Source: Lachnospiraceae bacterium JLR.KK008
Lineage (GTDB): Bacteria > Bacillota > Clostridia > Lachnospirales > Lachnospiraceae
DNA: 64,000 nucleotides
Assembly: GCA_037015955.1 (NCBI GenBank)
Contig: CP143548.1
Span: 2,102,001 to 2,166,000 of the forward strand
Reading direction: 5' to 3'
The notes beneath the pieces are model-generated. The model ran no database searches. It was not told the origin of the DNA and saw only the letters and a program-made list of their open reading frames with translations. Shown here piece by piece: positions 7,970-63,193 of the stretch; the first letter of the stretch is position 1; every line of letters starts with the position of its first letter. A program made the position numbers and the translations under genes.

Positions 7970-8000
7970 AAAAAGGTACAGTGCGGTGAAACACTGTACC
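7970..8000 (-). terminator. Intrinsic terminator between livJ and livH
   Basis: GGTACAGTG and CACTGTACC form a perfect 9-bp stem with an 8-nt loop, followed by five T residues on the minus strand. It begins 24 bp after the livJ stop. It should keep most transcripts to livJ alone, giving an excess of binding protein over transporter. Confidence 0.9.
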
Positions 8001-8023
8001 CCTCTGTACTTTTCTATAAACGA

Positions 8024-9250
8024 TTACATGGCAGCGTATGCGCCGTCTGTGATCTTAACAGCCTTCGGCGCTTTGTTCGGTTCGCCGTCAGCGCCCCATG
8101 TCATGCCTACGCCTGTCAGACCATCAATCGTGATCTCTGTCATGGATACTTTCAGTGCCTCACAAATATCGGAAGCGCTCATGTCAGGCGTCGCGCCTGC
8201 TTTTTCAAGCGCTGCTTTCAGTGCATAAATGCCGTCATAGGCATCTGCTGCGAACTGGTTCGGAATGTCACCGTAAGCGTCCTGATATGCCGTTACGAAA
8301 TTCTGTGTCAGTTCATCTTCCGCATCTGCCGCAAACGGTGTCAGAAGCATCACGCCCTCTGCAAGAGACGTATCAAAATCCTCTACTGCAAGAATACCGT
8401 CCAGACCGTCACAGCCAAAGAAGATCGGTGCATATCCCATCTTATCTGCCTGACCTAAAATGATAGAAGCCTCAGTATAATAAATAGGAAGGAATACAAG
8501 CTCAGCGCCGGCATCTTTTGCTTTCTGAAGCTGCACGGAAAAATCTGTGCTGCTGTCTGCGGTAAACGCCTCCGCGGATACGATCTCAAGACCCTGGTTG
8601 GGAGCTTCTGATGCAAATGTCTGATAAATACCGGAAGAATATACGTCGGAACTGTTGTAGATAACCGCTACCTTTGTCGCCAGCTTATTCTCGCCGATGT
8701 ACTGCGCGGATGCGCTTCCCTGGTTCGGGTCGGAGAAACATACGCGGAATGCGTTGTCATACTGGATACTCTCCACCGCGGACCCTGAAGGTGTAAGCTG
8801 GAACAGATTATCCTCATGGGACTTCTCAACGACTGCGGTACAAGGTGTACTCGTTACCGTACCAAGCAGCATCTGCATATCCCAGTCTTTCAATGTGTTG
8901 TAAGCGTTGACTGCCTTCTCTGCGTCATGCTCATCATCCTGGAAATTGAACTCGATCATGGCGCCGTTCACGCCGCCTGCCGCATTGATCTCATCGACTG
9001 CCAGCTGAGCCGCATTTTTTACTGCCTGACCGTATACTGCTGCCGCACCAGTCACAGGGCCGATCCCACCGATCCGGAACGCTGCACCGTCAGATGCCCC
9101 TGCGCTCTCTCCTTCCGCTGCATTTTCTGTCGCCGTACTCTCCGGCGTCGTGTTGTCTGTTGTAGAATCAGAAGCTGCAGTCCCTCCGCAGCCTGCCAGG
9201 GTAGCTGCCACCATAGCTGATGCTACAACAATGCTGAACATTTTTTTCAT
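8024..9250 (-). CDS. livJ: Branched-chain amino acid ABC transporter substrate-binding lipoprotein
   Basis: The 408-residue protein has a lipoprotein signal ending at Cys21 (TLAGC), a Ser/Thr/Glu-rich linker to about residue 50, and a Leu/Ile/Val-binding fold with the marker segment GIGPVTGAAAVYGQAVKNAA and AAGGVNG near the ligand pocket. ATG 9250 was chosen over the upstream in-frame ATG at 9274 because GAGGAGAAGAGATT sits just before it and the signal peptide begins there. It is first in the liv cluster and captures the amino acid outside the membrane for LivHMGF. Confidence 0.95.
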   Translation of the reverse strand: MKKMFSIVVASAMVAATLAGCGGTAASDSTTDNTTPESTATENAAEGESAGASDGAAFRIGGIGPVTGAAAVYGQAVKNAAQLAVDEINAAGGVNGAMIEFNFQDDEHDAEKAVNAYNTLKDWDMQMLLGTVTSTPCTAVVEKSHEDNLFQLTPSGSAVESIQYDNAFRVCFSDPNQGSASAQYIGENKLATKVAVIYNSSDVYSSGIYQTFASEAPNQGLEIVSAEAFTADSSTDFSVQLQKAKDAGAELVFLPIYYTEASIILGQADKMGYAPIFFGCDGLDGILAVEDFDTSLAEGVMLLTPFAADAEDELTQNFVTAYQDAYGDIPNQFAADAYDGIYALKAALEKAGATPDMSASDICEALKVSMTEITIDGLTGVGMTWGADGEPNKAPKAVKITDGAYAAM

Positions 9251-9290
9251 AATCTCTTCTCCTCCATTCTGCATTGCGAATTATATGCAC

Positions 9291-9319
9291 AAAAAGATTC
9301 AGTGGATCACCATTGAACC
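9291..9319 (-). terminator. Terminator-like hairpin in the livJ leader
   Basis: On the minus strand GGTTCAATGG and CCACTGAATC pair (one mismatch, one wobble) around TGAT and are followed by TTTTTG. It lies downstream of both the ktrA stop and the livJ promoter, so it may end the ktr transcript and also attenuate livJ. No alternative antiterminator stem was worked out. Confidence 0.6.
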
Positions 9320-9336
9320 TTTTTACAGCTAAACGT

Positions 9337-9365
9337 ATCATAAATACTTTTTTTACATTTGTCAA
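9337..9365 (-). promoter_or_regulatory. Sigma-A promoter of livJ
   Basis: TTGACA (9360-9365) and TATGAT (9337-9342) are separated by exactly 17 bp. The -35 box overlaps the ktrA stop codon. The leader to ATG 9250 would be about 80 nt and contains the terminator-like hairpin. Confidence 0.8.
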
Positions 9366-10027
9366 CGTTTTTTTTCGTCCAAACGCTTAAGCACACGGAA
9401 CACATCATCGTTATTGCCCATCACAATCAGATGATCACCGTCTGCAAACCGATAATCCGGATGGATCACAAAGTCCGTAAATTCTCCTTTTTTAATCCCT
9501 AAAATATTCACATGATATTTGGGTCGGATGTCCAGCTCCCGCACGGTTCTGCCGATCCATTCCGGCAGAGGAACCGTCTCGTAGATCGAGCATTCCCGGC
9601 TCAGCTCAATATAGTCAAACACGTGGCTCGCACTGCAGCGGTTGGCCAGCCGTTCCGCTATGTCACGGTCCGGGTAGATGACCTCGTCGGCGCCGTTTCG
9701 CAGCAGGAATTTCGACTGAATGTCCCTGACTGCCTTACTGATCACATATTTGGCGCCCATCTCTTTTAACTGACTCGTGATCTCCAGACTGCTCTGGAAA
9801 TTCTCTCCGACACAGACAAAACAATAATCAAAATTGTCCACACCCAATGTCTTTAATACGTCCACTTTCGTACAGTCGCCGATCTTGGCGCTCGTCACGA
9901 CCGAAAGCACTTCCTCCAGCGCCTCCTCCCGTTCGTCCACGACCATGATCTGATTGCCCAGCTCCGCCATCTTTCTGCACAGATGATAACCGAAATTTCC
10001 CATCCCGATAATTAAAACCGCTTTCAT
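9362..10027 (-). CDS. ktrA: Potassium uptake regulatory subunit KtrA/TrkA
   Basis: The 221-residue protein has an N-terminal RCK/TrkA_N Rossmann domain (IIGMGNFGYHLCRKMAELG, residues 5-23, then an acidic end of strand two at VVDERE) and a C-terminal TrkA_C domain after about residue 135. RCK subunits bind nucleotide and gate the KtrB channel from the cytoplasmic side. I took ATG 10027, preceded by AAAGGGCGGAC, rather than an in-frame ATG at 10051 that has no ribosome binding site. It follows ktrB after 81 bp. Confidence 0.9.
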   Translation of the reverse strand: MKAVLIIGMGNFGYHLCRKMAELGNQIMVVDEREEALEEVLSVVTSAKIGDCTKVDVLKTLGVDNFDYCFVCVGENFQSSLEITSQLKEMGAKYVISKAVRDIQSKFLLRNGADEVIYPDRDIAERLANRCSASHVFDYIELSRECSIYETVPLPEWIGRTVRELDIRPKYHVNILGIKKGEFTDFVIHPDYRFADGDHLIVMGNNDDVFRVLKRLDEKKR

Positions 10028-56991: not shown

Positions 56992-57104
56992 TCAAATTAT
57001 ACCTGCTAATTTGCGAAATAGCTGTAGCATGAACCAAAAATTGTAGCAAAGGTACTTATAGACATTGCTGCCCCCAAAAGCACTCTTTGAAAAGAGCATA
57101 AATC

Positions 57105-57285
57105 TCAGCGTACAGCTTCAAAATTCCCTGATTCCATACTATAAACATGATCACAAAGGATATTTATATCTTCTGAATTATGACTGGTAATTAAAATTAT
57201 TTTTCCACATGTATTATGATTTCGGATCAAGTCCTACTTTATCCATAATACCTTCTAAATAAGGTCTGTTATTCTTATCCTGCAT
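57105..57285 (-). pseudogene. Remnant of an ABC transporter ATPase gene
   Basis: Two pieces survive on the minus strand. 57214-57285 reads MQDKNNRPYLEGIMDKVGLDPKS then stops, like the segment before the signature in bacteriocin/antibiotic-type ABC ATPases. 57105-57206, in another frame, reads GKIILITSHNSEDINILCDHV and continues to a stop, the H-loop region of such an ATPase. The signature and Walker B region between them, and the whole Walker A part, are missing. It follows the lipoprotein 1 gene, so a transporter probably once belonged to this unit. Confidence 0.7.
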
Positions 57286-57288
57286 TTG

Positions 57289-57360
57289 TCATGGCAAGCG
57301 AATTGTATAATTTGCCCCATTATTGAGCATACAGGCCTCTTTAAGTCTGTTTTCAAATAA
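57289..57360 (-). pseudogene. Fragment resembling a histidine kinase C-terminus
   Basis: Directly after the lipoprotein 1 stop, 23 codons read LFENRLKEACMLNNGANYTI and then RLP-stop. Ending in [FY]TIRLP after a GA/GT turn is characteristic of HATPase domains of sensor kinases. There is no start codon or upstream domain. The similarity is short, so this is tentative. Confidence 0.45.
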
Positions 57361-57373
57361 TTACAAAATTTTC

Positions 57374-58546
57374 TCAAGGTATAATCTCCTTCGCTGTCTG
57401 TGCATCTATAATGACCTGAATATCCTGCTCATGCTGTTCACTTTTTTCGATCCCCTTCACGATCCAGACAGGCTTTACATCATATACGCCTGTTCCTGAA
57501 GATAAATCAACATAATAGCATAATTCTGCTTCTGTCATTTCATATGTTGAGCTTCCGAGTATTTGGTTATACTTATGAGCAACCGTTTCAGCAATCACAT
57601 CCATAGGAGCTAAAGAGACTGCCATTCCTTCATCAGAAATTTCAAATACTTTTTCAATGTTCAAATACTCTATTCCATCTTTTGATATAAATGCCTGTAC
57701 CGGAGCATTTACATCTGCTACATCTGAAAATATCTCACAATACACATGATAAAGCGGCAGTTCTCTGTATATCTGATTGACACAAAAATAATAGCCTTCA
57801 TCTGAGACGGACCACCCGCTTTTATAGTTTGCCCGGTCAATATTTCCGTCCATATCTTCGTGATATTCCTGTGACTGCATACAATTGTAATCTAACGCAT
57901 ATCCCGTATAAACATGCTCAAATTTAATATTCACTTCTGTTAATGCGTTATCAATTATCTGAAAAGCCTCCTCACGCGTCATAAATGACAACTGCTCTTC
58001 TGTAGAATACAAACCTGCATTATATCGATCATCTGCCGGATCAAGTACAAAAGAGCTGAGTATATATGGCATCAGATCTCTTTGCATATATGACATCTGA
58101 CTGGAAAGCGGACCATAAGATAATGTTATTTCCTCTGGAGTGACATAAGTTGCCGTATCTACTTTTTCCCCATATTCGTTTTTTTCTTCATAACTGTATA
58201 CTTCGTAATCATCATTACCGCTGAATAATGATTGAAATGCCCACTCCTCATTTACTTTCAACATTCTTGCTTTCGCGGTAATTGGAAATTTTTCTCCTAA
58301 ATCAGCACCAACAATAACATCCATCTTAAAATCAACATTTTCTATGGTATTCTCGTAACTTGCTGGAAAAGTAATTTTCTCATCAGGTATATCGTTTTCT
58401 ACATAAGATTCTTCTGTTTCAGAACCCACTTCATTTTGAACATCTGCTATTTTACTTCCAGAATCCTGTCCCTGCCCTGAATTTCCACACCCAAATATAG
58501 ACATAGAAAAAATAACAATCAATATCAAACATAGTTGCCTTTTCAT
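57374..58546 (-). CDS. Lipoprotein 1, paralogue of the gene at 61129-62244
   Basis: The 390-residue protein has a lipoprotein signal ending at Cys20 (SIFGC) and a disordered acidic linker. It shares a pattern with the second lipoprotein of the island: LSFMTREEA against LSFMSREDA, a PLYHVY against PVYRNE segment, PVWIVKG against PVWCVDF, and IIDAQTAKEI against RFNAITGEEI at the C-terminus. The family is not recognised; such proteins may bind a ligand or protect against one. ATG 58546 follows AAAAGGAGAAAGTCGG. The leader of about 100 nt starts at a promoter shared with the paralogue. Confidence 0.75.
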   Translation of the reverse strand: MKRQLCLILIVIFSMSIFGCGNSGQGQDSGSKIADVQNEVGSETEESYVENDIPDEKITFPASYENTIENVDFKMDVIVGADLGEKFPITAKARMLKVNEEWAFQSLFSGNDDYEVYSYEEKNEYGEKVDTATYVTPEEITLSYGPLSSQMSYMQRDLMPYILSSFVLDPADDRYNAGLYSTEEQLSFMTREEAFQIIDNALTEVNIKFEHVYTGYALDYNCMQSQEYHEDMDGNIDRANYKSGWSVSDEGYYFCVNQIYRELPLYHVYCEIFSDVADVNAPVQAFISKDGIEYLNIEKVFEISDEGMAVSLAPMDVIAETVAHKYNQILGSSTYEMTEAELCYYVDLSSGTGVYDVKPVWIVKGIEKSEQHEQDIQVIIDAQTAKEIIP

Positions 58547-58651
58547 CCGACTTTCTCCTTTTAATTTTGTTTTTACCATATTAAATTCCTCCATTCTGTA
58601 TTAGGTAGTGAACTTTTGTGTAGCTGTTCTGTGAAATCAATGGCACTTCTC

Positions 58652-58679
58652 ATTATCTTTATTCCGGTCATGATTACAA
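58652..58679 (-). promoter_or_regulatory. Promoter of lipoprotein 1
   Basis: TTGTAA (58674-58679) and GATAAT (58652-58657) are 16 bp apart on the minus strand. The same boxes and spacing occur before lipoprotein 2 at 62323-62350. Downstream, 58624-58646 matches 62294-62316 with two differences in 23. Confidence 0.7.
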
Positions 58680-58693
58680 CCCCATTGGCACCA

Positions 58694-58723
58694 AACGACA
58701 TTTTTTTCATTCATTTGGTCATT
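58694..58723 (-). promoter_or_regulatory. LytTR-type direct repeat before lipoprotein 1
   Basis: On the minus strand AATGACCAA (58715-58723) and AATGTCGTT (58694-58702) lie exactly 21 bp apart, centre to centre, and end 14 bp before the -35 box. Paired 9-bp direct repeats with 12 bp between them are the binding geometry of AgrA/LytTR regulators. The LytTR gene lies 200 bp away. Confidence 0.7.
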
Positions 58724-58741
58724 CCAGTAATTTTTTTCATT

Positions 58742-58780
58742 ATTTTTGGTCGATTACAAAACGGGAACCTCGGATTGCAA
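58742..58780. repeat. Inverted repeat GGTCGATT-N23-AATCGACC
   Basis: Perfect 8-bp arms flank 23 bp in the gap between lipoprotein 1 and the regulator gene. It could form a hairpin or bind a protein; no T tract makes it a clear terminator. Confidence 0.5.
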
Positions 58781-58831
58781 TCGACCATTTTCTTATTCTT
58801 ATTTTTCAATTTATCCCAAAATCCACAAAAA

Positions 58832-58882
58832 AATGTCTTTTCATACAAGCCTTTTGTATTTTTCTGGCCTTTATTGTATAGT
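58832..58882 (+). promoter_or_regulatory. Promoter of the LytTR-GHKL pair with one half-site
   Basis: TTGTAT (58854-58859) and TATAGT (58877-58882) are 17 bp apart on the plus strand. AATGTCTTT (58832-58840) lies 13 bp before the -35, matching the half-site AATGTCGTT and its 14-bp distance at the lipoprotein promoters. The second half-site 21 bp further up (TTATCCCAA) is poor. Autoregulation is plausible. Confidence 0.55.
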
Positions 58883-58925
58883 ACAAAGAGTAAATGAGGT
58901 AAATGACACGAAAAGAGGAATGAGA

Positions 58926-59630
58926 ATGCGAATACTCATCTGTGACGATGATGCGCTGATAATTGAACAGCTTCAGAAATATATAAAAAATTTTTTTGAA
59001 AACATCGGTGTGAAATGTCCTGAATTAATTTGCTTTTCTGATGGGGAATCTCTCTTGGCAGATGAAGGTGAAAAGGACATTCTGTTTCTTGACGTAGAAA
59101 TGCCCGGGATGAATGGTATCTATGTGGGAAAGGAGTTAAAAAAGAAGAATGAAAATATTATTATTTTTATTGTGACTTCTTATTCCGAATATCTTGATGA
59201 GGCAATGCGGTTCCATGTATTCCGCTACCTTTCCAAGCCTTTGACGAAACAACGTTTTTTTCGTAATATGAAAGATGCGGTTGACCTGTATAACACCATG
59301 ACAGTAAAAATCCCGGTTGAAACAAAACACGGCGTGCATACACTGCTTGCATCCTCCGTCATAGCAGTAGAGGCACAGGGCAGAAAGGTAACGGTACATA
59401 CCACTCTGTGTGATTTTGAATCCACCCACAATATGCAGTACTGGCTGGAACTTCTCCCTAAAAACAATTTCTTCCAGACACACCGCAGTTTCATTATCAA
59501 TTTTGAACATGTCACAGATTTTGACCGTAATCTTGTTCATTTATCAGAAAATCAATCTGCTTATCTGACAAAAAGAAAATACAGCTCATTCAAAGAAGCC
59601 TATCTCCTTTATTTAGAAAGTACAAGGTAA
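58926..59630 (+). CDS. LytTR-family response regulator (AgrA-like)
   Basis: The 234-residue protein has a receiver domain (acidic pocket CDDD at 6-9, phospho-acceptor Asp56 in LFLDVEMPG, Lys in RYLSKPL) and a C-terminal LytTR DNA-binding domain (about 130-232) with FFQTHRSFIIN. LytTR proteins bind paired direct repeats. ATG 58926 follows AGAGG at a normal distance; an ATG two codons earlier is too close. The kinase gene starts 5 bp after its stop. Confidence 0.92.
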   Translation: MRILICDDDALIIEQLQKYIKNFFENIGVKCPELICFSDGESLLADEGEKDILFLDVEMPGMNGIYVGKELKKKNENIIIFIVTSYSEYLDEAMRFHVFRYLSKPLTKQRFFRNMKDAVDLYNTMTVKIPVETKHGVHTLLASSVIAVEAQGRKVTVHTTLCDFESTHNMQYWLELLPKNNFFQTHRSFIINFEHVTDFDRNLVHLSENQSAYLTKRKYSSFKEAYLLYLESTR

Positions 59631-59635
59631 AGCAA

Positions 59636-60949
59636 ATGGTAAATACAATCTGTTATTTTTTCGGTTTTCTTGTAGAAGCAATGATACTCTGGCAGTACTC
59701 CTGCAATTTATTTCCCGCCAGACACACCAGGCCGAGAAGGCTTGCCGTGCTATGCGGTTTATATTTTATGCTGTTTTGCGTATCACTGTCTGAAGCTATA
59801 TGGATCAATCTCGTATTATATTTTTTACTGAATTTCATTTTCTTAGTGACTCAATGTTCTCTGAATCGGTACGCGGCAGTATTTCATTCTTCCATACTGA
59901 CGGCTGTTATGACAATGAGTGAATTAATTGTTTATGCCATTACCAAACGGTTTGCCCCTCACTTCCTTGATAATGGCAGGGAATTTTATCATCTTTTATT
60001 TTTTTCGGTCTTTAGTAAGCTCATATTCTTTGCTGTTGCTTATATACTGATGCACCTGATGCAAAACCCGAAGAAGGATACAGGGCAGTATGATCAGTCT
60101 GTTTTTCTATTTGTTTTCATTCCCTTAACCTCAATTTTTATTATGTTTACTTACATAAGTATTGGCGAATCCGTTTCCCTCCCAGCGTCACTTGACTGGA
60201 TGGTTGCTGTGGGCGCTGTTTTTTTGCTGGCAGCAAATCTGCTTATGTTTGAAATCAACCAGTATCATCAGAAAAAAAACAGGGAATTTACAGAAATACA
60301 GTTATTGCTCCAAAAAGAGTCAGATTTGGCTGGATATTATAAGATGCTGAATGTACAGAATGAAAACCAGCGTATTTTAATCCATGACATAAAAAAGCAC
60401 CTGCAGTCCATTGATATGCTGAATGAACAAAAAGAGTATGCTAAGATAAGAGCCTATATCCGGCAATTGGTACTCTCACCAGACCTGAAGGAATTTTCCA
60501 GACTATGCGACCATGAAATGCTGAATTCCATTCTATGCCGCTATATGCAGCAATGCACTGACAGCCACATAACTTTTCATGCTGACATTCGAAGTGGAAC
60601 GACAGATTTTATTGCTGACAACGACCTTACCTCATTGTTCTGCAATCTGCTCGACAATGCTGTGAAAGCGGCTGAATACATTCCAGAATCATTTATTGAA
60701 ATTAGTACAAGCAAAAAAGCAAAAAATCCATTTACAGTTTTGACGGTCATAAATTCCTGCCGGACAGATCCTTTCATAACGAAAAACGGTAGTCCGACTA
60801 TAAATATACCCCGAAGCCATAAGCATGGTTTCGGACTTAAAAGCATCCGCAAAATTGTCACCAAGTACAATGGGAATATGCAGATATACTACAATTCTGA
60901 TACGCTGACGTTCCATGCAATCATTATTTTAAAACAACAGGGATTATGA
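59636..60949 (+). CDS. GHKL sensor histidine kinase (AgrC-like)
   Basis: The 437-residue protein has six or so N-terminal membrane helices (to about residue 207), a short coiled coil, the phospho-acceptor His250 in LIHDIKKHLQ, and a GHKL ATPase domain with LLDNAVKAA and HGFGLKSI. This plan, and the missing classical H-box, put it with AgrC-type peptide-sensing kinases. No AgrB or AgrD gene is present, so the ligand is unknown. It pairs with the LytTR regulator. Confidence 0.92.
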   Translation: MVNTICYFFGFLVEAMILWQYSCNLFPARHTRPRRLAVLCGLYFMLFCVSLSEAIWINLVLYFLLNFIFLVTQCSLNRYAAVFHSSILTAVMTMSELIVYAITKRFAPHFLDNGREFYHLLFFSVFSKLIFFAVAYILMHLMQNPKKDTGQYDQSVFLFVFIPLTSIFIMFTYISIGESVSLPASLDWMVAVGAVFLLAANLLMFEINQYHQKKNREFTEIQLLLQKESDLAGYYKMLNVQNENQRILIHDIKKHLQSIDMLNEQKEYAKIRAYIRQLVLSPDLKEFSRLCDHEMLNSILCRYMQQCTDSHITFHADIRSGTTDFIADNDLTSLFCNLLDNAVKAAEYIPESFIEISTSKKAKNPFTVLTVINSCRTDPFITKNGSPTINIPRSHKHGFGLKSIRKIVTKYNGNMQIYYNSDTLTFHAIIILKQQGL

Positions 60950-60965
60950 AAAACCATAATCCCTG
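60938..60965. terminator. Bidirectional hairpin between kinase and lipoprotein 2
   Basis: CAGGGATTATG and CATAATCCCTG form a perfect 11-bp stem overlapping the kinase stop. On the minus strand TTGTTTT follows, so it suits lipoprotein 2 transcripts best; the kinase operon can use it too. Confidence 0.75.
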
Positions 60966-61128
60966 TCTCTGCCTGTCAATACCCTATTTTGATGTAAAAC
61001 TATTAAATGATCCTGGTTATGTCAAACTTACTGGTGAAAATCCATATATCCAGTCCAGCCATTCATTTGAAACACATATATCCAAAACAGCGATTAACTT
61101 CCCCGCGAATGTTCCTGCTGATTTGCAG

Positions 61129-62244
61129 TTATCTTATTTCCTCTCCTGTGATTGCGTTAAACCGAATTGAATACCTGCTGTCTTCAACCGATTGTCCATC
61201 TACTTCAAAATCAACACACCATACCGGAATCAGTTCCATCTCTGTCAAAGAGTCTTCCCTCAGAAGCGGAAAATACTCCATCCAGATATTCTTTGCCCTG
61301 AACTCGCTTGTTAAAATCACATCACCAAATCTTTTCACGATTGCTTCTTTGATGCCGTCCTCACCTATGATAATCGCTTCCTTCTGATGTTCCTCATAAG
61401 GCTCAAACATTCCCATCATGGTTATCATTTCGATCCCATTATTTGATAGCAACGCCGTTACAGTAGCCGGATAAGCCAGAAATCTCTCACTCGTTTGCCT
61501 CAGATTTGGCTCATTTCGGTATACGGGAATCCCATTTACATTCATTCGAAAACTGATTCGGTACACTTCCATGCCTTCGTCAAACGTATCACTTCCATAT
61601 CCCTTTGCCGACAGAAACTGATAGTCGCCATCTTCCAATATTGCCTTTTTCACACTCTCAAAATCCGCCTGATCCATAGCAACCACATCGAAAGCTTCCA
61701 GTTCTCCACCCACGTCAAGCATCCCTATAAAGCTCTGCAGCCTTGCAACAGCATCTTCCCGGGACATAAAAGAAAGATCCCTGTCATCTGCCAGTCCCAT
61801 CTCCCCTGCATAGGAACAATAGGTGTCCAAATGGTTTGCCATATCGTTTCTTTGATATGTCAGGGAGCCACCCGTGGATTTATCGCTTCCATCATCAGCA
61901 ACAAGGTTTCCTTCTGCATTTCCTATTGCTTCCTGCACTTTATCATAGTCAAAGCTTTTTAACTGCGTTGCATACTCATAAAGGTTATTTTCCGGCACTT
62001 TCAATTCTGCACTGATGAACAGATTTTCATCCAGTTTTTCATCTACGAAAGCTGTTGTATCCTGCTCATCTTCGACATCAATATTTGTCTCATCCTGTGC
62101 TTCAACCATCTGAGTGTCTGCTGCTGTACTACCATGGTCAATGTCTGGGACTTCTCCCTGAGATGTGCTGGCACAACCGCCTAATAATGTCAGAAGAATA
62201 AGCATACTCATTGAAGCTATCATCGTTTTTTTCATCTTTTTCAT
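61129..62244 (-). CDS. Lipoprotein 2, paralogue of the gene at 57374-58546
   Basis: The 371-residue protein has a lipoprotein signal ending at Cys24 (LGGC), an acidic linker and the outer domain described for lipoprotein 1. Overall identity is low; conserved points are LSFMSREDAV, PVYRNE, MELIPVWCVDF and the C-terminal AITGEE. GGGGAGACCGATAG precedes ATG 62244. It is convergent with the kinase gene and carries its own copy of the LytTR promoter module. Confidence 0.78.
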   Translation of the reverse strand: MKKMKKTMIASMSMLILLTLLGGCASTSQGEVPDIDHGSTAADTQMVEAQDETNIDVEDEQDTTAFVDEKLDENLFISAELKVPENNLYEYATQLKSFDYDKVQEAIGNAEGNLVADDGSDKSTGGSLTYQRNDMANHLDTYCSYAGEMGLADDRDLSFMSREDAVARLQSFIGMLDVGGELEAFDVVAMDQADFESVKKAILEDGDYQFLSAKGYGSDTFDEGMEVYRISFRMNVNGIPVYRNEPNLRQTSERFLAYPATVTALLSNNGIEMITMMGMFEPYEEHQKEAIIIGEDGIKEAIVKRFGDVILTSEFRAKNIWMEYFPLLREDSLTEMELIPVWCVDFEVDGQSVEDSRYSIRFNAITGEEIR

Positions 62245-62322
62245 CTATCGGTCTCCCCTTCCTTTCAATGCAATCAATGAAATGAATCTTGTTGCTGTTT
62301 TGTGAAATCAATGACATATCCC

Positions 62323-62350
62323 ATTATCCATGTTTCAGTCATGAGTTCAA
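62323..62350 (-). promoter_or_regulatory. Promoter of lipoprotein 2
   Basis: TTGAAC (62345-62350) and GATAAT (62323-62328) are 16 bp apart on the minus strand, the same boxes and spacing as at lipoprotein 1. Confidence 0.7.
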
Positions 62351-62364
62351 CCCTTCTTGCACCA

Positions 62365-62394
62365 AACGACACTTTTTACCTTTATATGGTCATT
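62365..62394 (-). promoter_or_regulatory. LytTR-type direct repeat before lipoprotein 2
   Basis: AATGACCAT (62386-62394) and AGTGTCGTT (62365-62373) are 21 bp apart centre to centre and end 14 bp before the -35 box. Spacing and bases repeat those at lipoprotein 1, as expected for common control by one LytTR protein. Confidence 0.7.
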
Positions 62395-62476
62395 TGAGCA
62401 ATATTTTCACTAATTTCTTCAAGATGTAGGGAAGCTGTAATCCCGCAGCCAGCACAATACCGATTGAAATAAACAT
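62390..62476 (-). pseudogene. C-terminal fragment of a hydrophobic protein
   Basis: A 28-codon frame reads MFISIGIVLAAGLQLPYIL and ends KKLVKILLK, a membrane helix followed by a basic tail. This looks like the end of a permease. It has no ribosome binding site, its stop lies in the LytTR repeat of lipoprotein 2, and upstream sequence has no matching frame. It is probably a leftover of a transporter gene. Confidence 0.4.
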
Positions 62477-62557
62477 TACGTATGTATATACCCTCAGTGG
62501 ACAAGGCGGACGATTGAGGCGTACTGGATATACGCTGATTGAGGACAACGCAGAAAA

Positions 62558-63193
62558 TTACTCAAACATAGCTTTCTGGATATTTTTCTGCCAATATGAG
62601 CTGTCAAAGTAATTCCCGCTTTTAGGCAGGTTCCTGAACATATTCATGATCATGTCATAAGTCATAGATGACGTGTCTATAAACAGTTCCTTTCCGTCCT
62701 TTGATTTAATCGCTGTACCGTTTGTTCCCACATAGGCAGTTGTATTGTCATTAAGGTGCTGTATCGTTCCTGTCATTTCCGCAAACTTTTTCAGCCACGA
62801 CTCTCCCGTTTCCTTGCACATTTCCTTAAATTTCTTGGCATCCTCCCCCGTCATATAAGGGTGCTTCCCATCCCTGACATACCATGAAAAACCTGTTGCT
62901 TTGTCCGTATATTTCGGGTCTGTTGCCGCCCATTCTTCCAAGGTCTTATCGCCATACCACACTGTCAGGCCGCTGTCATTTGATACAGCGTTTTCCTCCT
63001 GCCCCATTATTGGATTTGTTGATTTAAGTGCATCATATATAACCTGCACATTGGCATTCTGCCTTGCACCTCCAGGAATGGATTCCTCTGCCACCTGTTT
63101 CTGTTGGTAGCACTGTCCGGCACTTCTCCTGTTGTACTTATTCGTTGATACATTGTTCTGATAATAATTCTGTCCTATTCCATTGACGCTCAT
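62558..63193 (-). CDS. Conserved-looking protein of unknown function
   Basis: The 211-residue protein has no signal peptide or membrane helix. The N-terminus is rich in Asn, Gln and Tyr (MSVNGIGQNYYQNN), the middle is mixed with several Trp (TVWYGDKTLEEWAA, FSWYVRDGKHPYM), and the end contains SSMTYDMIMNMFRNLP. I do not recognise it. The start shares a base with the stop of a 53-codon frame upstream (TAATG), so the two are probably coupled. GGAGG lies 9 nt before the ATG. Confidence 0.65.
   Translation of the reverse strand: MSVNGIGQNYYQNNVSTNKYNRRSAGQCYQQKQVAEESIPGGARQNANVQVIYDALKSTNPIMGQEENAVSNDSGLTVWYGDKTLEEWAATDPKYTDKATGFSWYVRDGKHPYMTGEDAKKFKEMCKETGESWLKKFAEMTGTIQHLNDNTTAYVGTNGTAIKSKDGKELFIDTSSMTYDMIMNMFRNLPKSGNYFDSSYWQKNIQKAMFE

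Follow-up and report, generated by a model that had tools for sequence, protein, structure and literature searches.

Introduction

The closest described relatives of the locus reported here are the agr system (AgrBDCA of Staphylococcus aureus and the agr-like loci of Firmicutes), VirSR of Clostridium perfringens and RgaSR of Clostridioides difficile, together with the pneumococcal blp loci as an analogous case. In agr, the regulator AgrA recruits polymerase to promoters with a non-optimal spacer (PMC4227749), and in C. difficile the regulator RgaR depends on critical G residues at -51 and -72 (PMC10602386). It is a matter of dispute, as in the case of pneumococcal blp, whether the receiver is retained for a reason in bacteria that give up signal production. 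Here, we describe a locus in a 64,000-nt stretch of the genome of Lachnospiraceae bacterium JLR.KK008 (contig CP143548.1, forward strand; hereafter the window, to which all coordinates without another label refer), in which a LytTR response regulator and a GHKL histidine kinase stand between two lipoprotein genes, lpA and lpB. The locus is best explained overall as a receiver-only derivative of an agr-type locus, with the regulator operon and three lipoprotein promoters as its putative regulon (probability about 0.66).

L-numbers denote individual loci in the scanned genomes, and G000:C1 is the contig of the window's own genome. An ortholog scan yielded about 50 loci orthologous to the LytTR regulator locus, nearly all labelled Lachnospiraceae or kin. 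L026 and L030, on contigs labelled Gastranaerophilales and Muribaculum, carry regulator copies 85-90% identical to that of the window and are probably assembly binning errors. No published description of the locus was found in the literature searched, whose coverage did not extend to subscription journals and preprints.

Gene layout and promoter modules

The regulator is encoded divergently to lpA and followed by the kinase, in the order:

57374 to 58546, minus strand: lipoprotein A (lpA), predicted YycI/DUF6034-like fold; the open reading frame extends to 58594, with the likely start MKRQLC at 58546
58926 to 59630, plus strand: LytTR response regulator, AgrA-like (Pfam LytTR, E 7e-17; receiver domain, E 1e-15)
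59636 to 60949, plus strand: GHKL histidine kinase, AgrC-like, with an N-terminal sensor half and a kinase domain (HATPase_c_5, E 1e-19)
61129 to 62244, minus strand: lipoprotein B (lpB), lipobox LGGC

A LytTR regulator adjoining a GHKL (HATPase_c_5) sensor kinase is the arrangement expected of an agr-type locus, and the regulator falls outside AgrA in the strict sense (NCBIfam NF046049, 25.5 bits against a cut-off of 400).

Positions 58619-58745 and 62290-62416 form a direct repeat of 127 nt, 76% identical and by far the largest repeat in the region, which cannot be ascribed to chance because genome-wide blastn gives E 3e-21. This similarity contrasts with the only 23% identity (E 4e-7) between lpA and lpB, the proteins behind the two copies. 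Each copy constitutes a promoter module:

58619 to 58745, minus strand: module 1, the lpA promoter, one unit of the 127-nt direct repeat
58688 to 58721, minus strand: operator 1, TGACC (58721) and TGTCGTTT (58700), starts 21 bp apart
58652 to 58679, minus strand: promoter boxes of module 1, -35 TTGTAA (58679-58674), 16-bp spacer, -10 GATAAT (58657-58652)
58630 to 58645, minus strand: early-leader motif TGCCATTGATTTCACA of module 1, beginning at the predicted +1 (aligned modules)
62290 to 62416, minus strand: module 2, the lpB promoter, with half-sites TGACC (62392) and TGTCG (62371), -35 TTGAAC (62350-62345) and -10 GATAAT (62328-62323)
62316 to 62301, minus strand: early-leader motif of module 2

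An earlier note, made from the sequence alone, had described two lipoprotein genes of the same distant family around the LytTR-GHKL pair, conserved stretches upstream of both, repeats 21 bp apart, TTGTAA/TTGAAC, a 16-bp spacer, GATAAT and a conserved leader; the alignment bears out the first two points and the remaining ones can be read directly from the sequence. That observation as a whole was correct, and the system proves more extensive, with a third module and a third lipoprotein, an operator at the regulator promoter and the scar of a transporter operon now added. The 21-bp spacing of the half-sites (TGACC..TGTCG on the minus strand), whose lack of conservation in relatives the same note had named as counting against its view, is held in nearly all of 42 aligned modules, two having one extra base. 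Conservation among the aligned copies is highest in the half-sites, in TTG within the -35 box and in ATAAT within the -10 box. With the predicted +1 taken 7 nt after the -10 box, where both window modules read TG(T/C)CATTGATTTCACA, the last G of TGTCG falls at -51, and its counterpart in the upstream half-site, a C, at -72. A reverse-strand alignment of the two upstream regions was worse (65% versus 80% mean column identity), and an Rfam search of the module gave no meaningful match to a known RNA element.

A putative four-site regulon

Blastn placed a third module, some 0.92 Mb away from the two in the window, at 3,083,598 of the genome, before a third lipoprotein of the family, lpC. In addition, an operator precedes the regulator gene itself:

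58816 to 58846, plus strand: operator at the regulator's own promoter, CCAAAATCCACAAAAAAATGTCTTTTCATAC
58854 to 58882, plus strand: predicted regulator promoter TTGTAT-17-TATAGT, read from the sequence

This operator lies on the opposite strand to the output operators and stands at the same distance from its -10 box as in the output modules. Some 43 orthologous loci share it in the form CCCAAAATcc.c.AAAAATGTCTTTTCATGCA, with a -35/-10 pair behind it. A pattern covering both operator kinds with at most three mismatches matches the 3.19-Mb genome at only four places, namely the regulator, lpA, lpB and lpC promoters, against one match for the reversed-pattern control; the output-module profile finds three matches at 75-82 bits in the same genome, the next scoring 14.6. 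Direct-repeat operators upstream of both its own and its output promoters, as in agr, are therefore present at the level of the sequence.

The search for the module near LytTR-GHKL pairs in other genomes, suggested by the earlier note, found it close to the regulator in nearly all orthologous loci that extend far enough; it is absent from the distant LytTR loci L064-L090. Among 299 family genomes, a strong module (more than 40 bits) occurs in 8 of the 13 with a LytTR orthologue (at least 62% identity) and in 0 of the 286 others, counts which are not independent events, as these genomes are mutually related. Some loci carry the module before unrelated lipoproteins or without any lipoprotein. 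The central proposal of the earlier note, a small LytTR-controlled regulon with surface lipoproteins as outputs, is thus supported by conservation, co-occurrence and the unlinked third member.

Two further cases bear on the modules. One genome (G264) holds two paralogous units, L151 and L152; both comprise a LytTR-GHKL pair, a module and a lipoprotein, one lipoprotein being of the lpC type and the other of the lpB type, which suggests that the window locus represents two such units after loss of one regulator pair. In L143 (G171:C86, 4536-4626), a diverged AgrB is followed by a module copy, which adjoins a different LytTR-GHKL pair and precedes a secreted protein of 158 residues.

Probable erosion of an agr locus

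In seven relatives (L017, L021, L049, L054, L055, L056 and L061), agrB lies directly upstream of the module, with agrD before it. In L021, the AgrB matches PF04647 (E 2e-33), the AgrD (MKGKLSKVVAKG...SCAIAYQPKAPKELARYRRRK) matches TIGR04223 above the cut-off (E 8e-9), and the agrB stop codon falls inside the first half-site of the module. The window retains traces of two losses:

62429 to 62500, minus strand: AgrB C-terminal fossil (71% identity over 24 aa, E 1.2e-4), directly upstream of module 2, in the same place as intact agrB in relatives
57008 to 57373, minus strand: scar of a deleted ATP-binding cassette (ABC) transporter operon (two permeases and an ATPase), in four co-linear pieces, the last continuing into lpA

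No intact agrB or agrD exists at the window locus, of which only the 24-residue AgrB tail is left. The earlier statement that AgrB and AgrD are missing therefore stands for intact genes and fails for the AgrB remnant, and the suggestion that the layout had not been described does not survive, since relatives carry agrD-agrB at exactly this place. Because of these relatives and the remnant, the window locus is read as an eroded agr locus. It apparently resembles a listener that no longer speaks, having kept the receiver and lost the genes that make the signal.

The four pieces of the ABC scar share 91-97% identity with the operon that is intact in L062 and L013, and three deletions removed more than 2.2 kb; these deletions are therefore judged recent. 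Overlaps of roughly 10 bases at two of the deletion joints within 57008-57400 point to deletion between short repeats, and the scar offers a clean example of gene loss by this route. The loss of agrDB is older than the ABC deletions and common to the window, L013, L014 and L062. Intact agrB does not cluster on the tree of regulator and kinase, its six rows requiring six changes; the relic label likewise takes six, of which well-supported branches force no fewer than five. The remnants also differ, comprising the tail only in the window clade, agrD with the start of agrB in L024 and L027, a middle piece in L015 and a broken frame in L016, L048 and L060.

The ratio of nonsynonymous to synonymous substitution rates (dN/dS) against the nearest relatives is about 0.09 for the LytTR regulator, 0.20 for the kinase and 0.25 for lpA (0.016/0.064 against L013), and 0.25-0.29 for the sensor half of the kinase. 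The sensor half gives 0.19-0.45 in loci without agrDB versus 0.22-0.27 between loci with agrDB, a difference within the noise of the method because the dS values are small. Taken as sequence evidence, the tree, the remnants and these ratios indicate that agrDB was lost on several branches while regulator, kinase and lipoproteins were kept under purifying selection.

Gene content in relatives

Downstream of the module, relatives carry varied combinations of a secreted protein of 135-160 residues, a lipoprotein and, often, two permeases with an ATPase. In L056, the secreted protein behind the module resembles lactococcin 972 (TIGR01653, E 7e-6, below the cut-off) and the next protein resembles a TIGR01654 bacteriocin-associated membrane protein (E 9e-49, likewise below the cut-off). 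The lactococcin-972 cluster (bacteriocin gene, TIGR01654 protein, ABC ATPase) is absent from the window and was found behind the module only in L056. In L148, the genes behind the module are of peptidoglycan-binding and lysozyme type, together with a lipoprotein. The structure model of the small secreted protein (predicted local distance difference test, pLDDT, 46) was too poor for a fold search.

In L061 (Roseburia inulinivorans DSM 16841, 7992-9456), agrD and agrB look intact and the LytTR and GHKL genes are split or truncated, which may be either the reverse situation or the result of draft-genome errors. A small protein (MSVNGIGQNYYQ...) is encoded upstream of module 2 at window 62558-63193, and one of similar style follows the module in L060 (1595-2221).

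The early-leader motif TGYCATTGATTTCACA (58630-58645 and 62301-62316) is a near-exact reverse complement of the stretch just before the agrD ribosome-binding site in L017, L021 and L049, and the duplex between the leader and the agrDB leader is predicted at -21 to -24.5 kcal/mol versus about -10 +/- 2.7 for shuffled sequences. The motif is present at all three lipoprotein promoters of the window's genome, although no local agrDB exists there. It could serve in RNA pairing or form half of a palindromic site for a neighbouring XRE-type regulator.

Proposed mechanism and alternative explanations

The operators, their co-occurrence with the regulator, the fossils, the repeated loss of agrDB and purifying selection can be read from the sequence itself; phosphorylation, DNA binding and activation are inferred from what is known of the LytTR family. 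On this basis, the GHKL kinase would phosphorylate the LytTR regulator, a dimer of which would bind both half-sites on one face of the DNA (21 bp being two turns), upstream of weak -35 boxes. In the way described for AgrA, the regulator would then recruit polymerase to promoters whose spacer is non-optimal; it would activate its own operon from a P2-like promoter and lpA, lpB and lpC from P3-like promoters. Besides these, the ancestral locus would have contained agrD-agrB for the signal, a transporter of the ABC type and a secreted antagonist-like protein. Deletions in the window lineage would have taken all of them, the transporter only recently, and left the sensor, the regulator, the operators and the lipoproteins. 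The kinase would now most likely answer cyclic peptides of related gut bacteria, and the lipoproteins would be the retained protective half of the old cluster. That the signal is foreign has about an even chance, considering that related bacteria still make CAIAY-type peptides and that the ring of the cell's other agr system differs. It is possible, if rather doubtful, that gut Lachnospiraceae repeatedly turned agr-controlled antagonist clusters into eavesdropping loci, in which signal genes are deleted, peptides of neighbours pre-induce lipoprotein protection and the +1 leader adds a link at the RNA level or to a second regulator.

Several observations weigh against this reading. Protection by the lipoproteins is its weakest step and somewhat less probable than an even bet, being drawn solely from gene neighbourhood, and the fold relatives of the lipoproteins (YycI) modulate sensor kinases and do not give immunity. 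The two half-sites match imperfectly (upstream TGACC-AAA, proximal TGTCG-TTT), and for this reason dimer binding is an assumption. The leader motif is conserved beyond what a LytTR promoter needs, which may reflect a second layer of control. Moreover, the class of loci scored as lacking agrB consists in part of loci that end at contig edges and are uninformative on agrB, and in the analogous pneumococcal case the 'cheater' idea has been disputed by experiment (PMC4739728).

The lipoproteins might instead act as extracytoplasmic, YycI-like partners of a sensor (the GHKL kinase or another one) in envelope sensing and feedback and not in protection. The structure model of lpA (pLDDT 78; predicted template modelling score 0.75) matches PDB 5coz (E 3e-15) and YycI of B. 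subtilis, a sensor-kinase regulator (E 6e-5). In Pfam, several other members of the family have hits to YycI (PF09648, best E 3e-6) and DUF6034 (E 1e-11), and lpA and lpB themselves gave none to either at E 0.1. The lipoprotein is the output most often retained where agrDB, the secreted protein and the ABC genes are gone. However, known YycI is a membrane-anchored single-pass protein and not a lipoprotein. In addition, the lipoprotein accompanies the transporter and antagonist-like genes in relatives, and some modules stand before unrelated lipoproteins or none. This role appears unlikely.

A second possibility is that the kinase is driven by the cell's own second, unrelated agr system at G000:C1:2413609 (L093), which would wire the regulon to a self-made signal. 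That locus has an intact AgrB (E 1e-35) and an AgrD with CYYIQYQPEEP, and in C. difficile agrB1D1 and RgaSR are an instance of signal genes encoded apart from an AgrC-like kinase (PMC10602386). Its CYYIQYQP core, however, differs from the CAIAYQP/CAIMYQP type found beside orthologous receivers, and it has its own adjacent AgrC-like gene, the frame of which is broken near the 3' end; self-signalling is thus considered improbable.

Decay to a remnant without present function is in line with the ABC scars, the lost agrDB and a truncated permease behind lpC, and is most improbable given that the regulator, both kinase halves and the lipoproteins are intact (dN/dS 0.09-0.3) and that all four operators, including the unlinked one, are retained. 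Finally, the module could be taken for a short gene encoding an AgrD-like peptide (MSFxAxxVEIM...IDF), as it lies directly behind agrB, a frequent agrD site, and has an open frame in many loci, but this is effectively ruled out by codon-position entropies of 0.86/0.90/0.73 over 46 copies (third positions no more variable), by frames shifted or stopped in several copies and by the true AgrD upstream of agrB in relatives; judged by its sequence, the module is promoter DNA and not a gene.

Comparison with known systems

The receiver-only derivative proposed here shares with agr the LytTR-GHKL pair, paired direct-repeat operators at its own and its output promoters, non-optimal spacers and, in relatives, AgrD and AgrB. 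It differs in that AgrB and AgrD are missing from the window apart from the fossil, the outputs are three lipoproteins and not RNAIII, and relatives have the order agrD-agrB, divergent from regulator and kinase.

VirSR and RgaSR likewise have an AgrC-like kinase and a LytTR regulator encoded apart from the signal genes (PMC10602386). The 21-bp separation of the critical RgaR residues and the position of the proximal G at -51 (predicted +1) recur in the window modules, an agreement that supports activation by the LytTR regulator as a plausible role. By contrast, the promoter of the window regulator itself carries an operator, the operators have a different sequence (TGTCKTTTCATGC), and the signal genes have been lost from the locus and not relocated, as far as found.

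The lipoprotein family resembles DUF6034/YycI-fold proteins (PF19499, PF09648, PDB 5coz) in predicted fold and profile matches, and lpA and lpB differ from them in their lipoprotein anchor and the lack of a significant Pfam match; no function is known for DUF6034. Pneumococcal blp 'cheater' loci (PMC4739728) also combine direct-repeat promoters with a retained receiver and immunity and a broken secretion or signal part, whereas the peptide class, the regulator (BlpRH) and the genes lost are different.

For the disputed question of the silent receiver, the locus family offers dozens of genomes with intact signal genes, partial remnants or none, a receiver and outputs under purifying selection, and a four-site regulon small enough for complete testing. 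The family further connects agr signalling in gut Lachnospiraceae with secreted, bacteriocin-like proteins and with an uncharacterised family of lipoproteins of YycI fold. Compared with the systems above, the novelty of the locus is limited to that of a variant, in which an agr locus lacks its signal and has shrunk to a receiver, an own-promoter operator and three lipoproteins.

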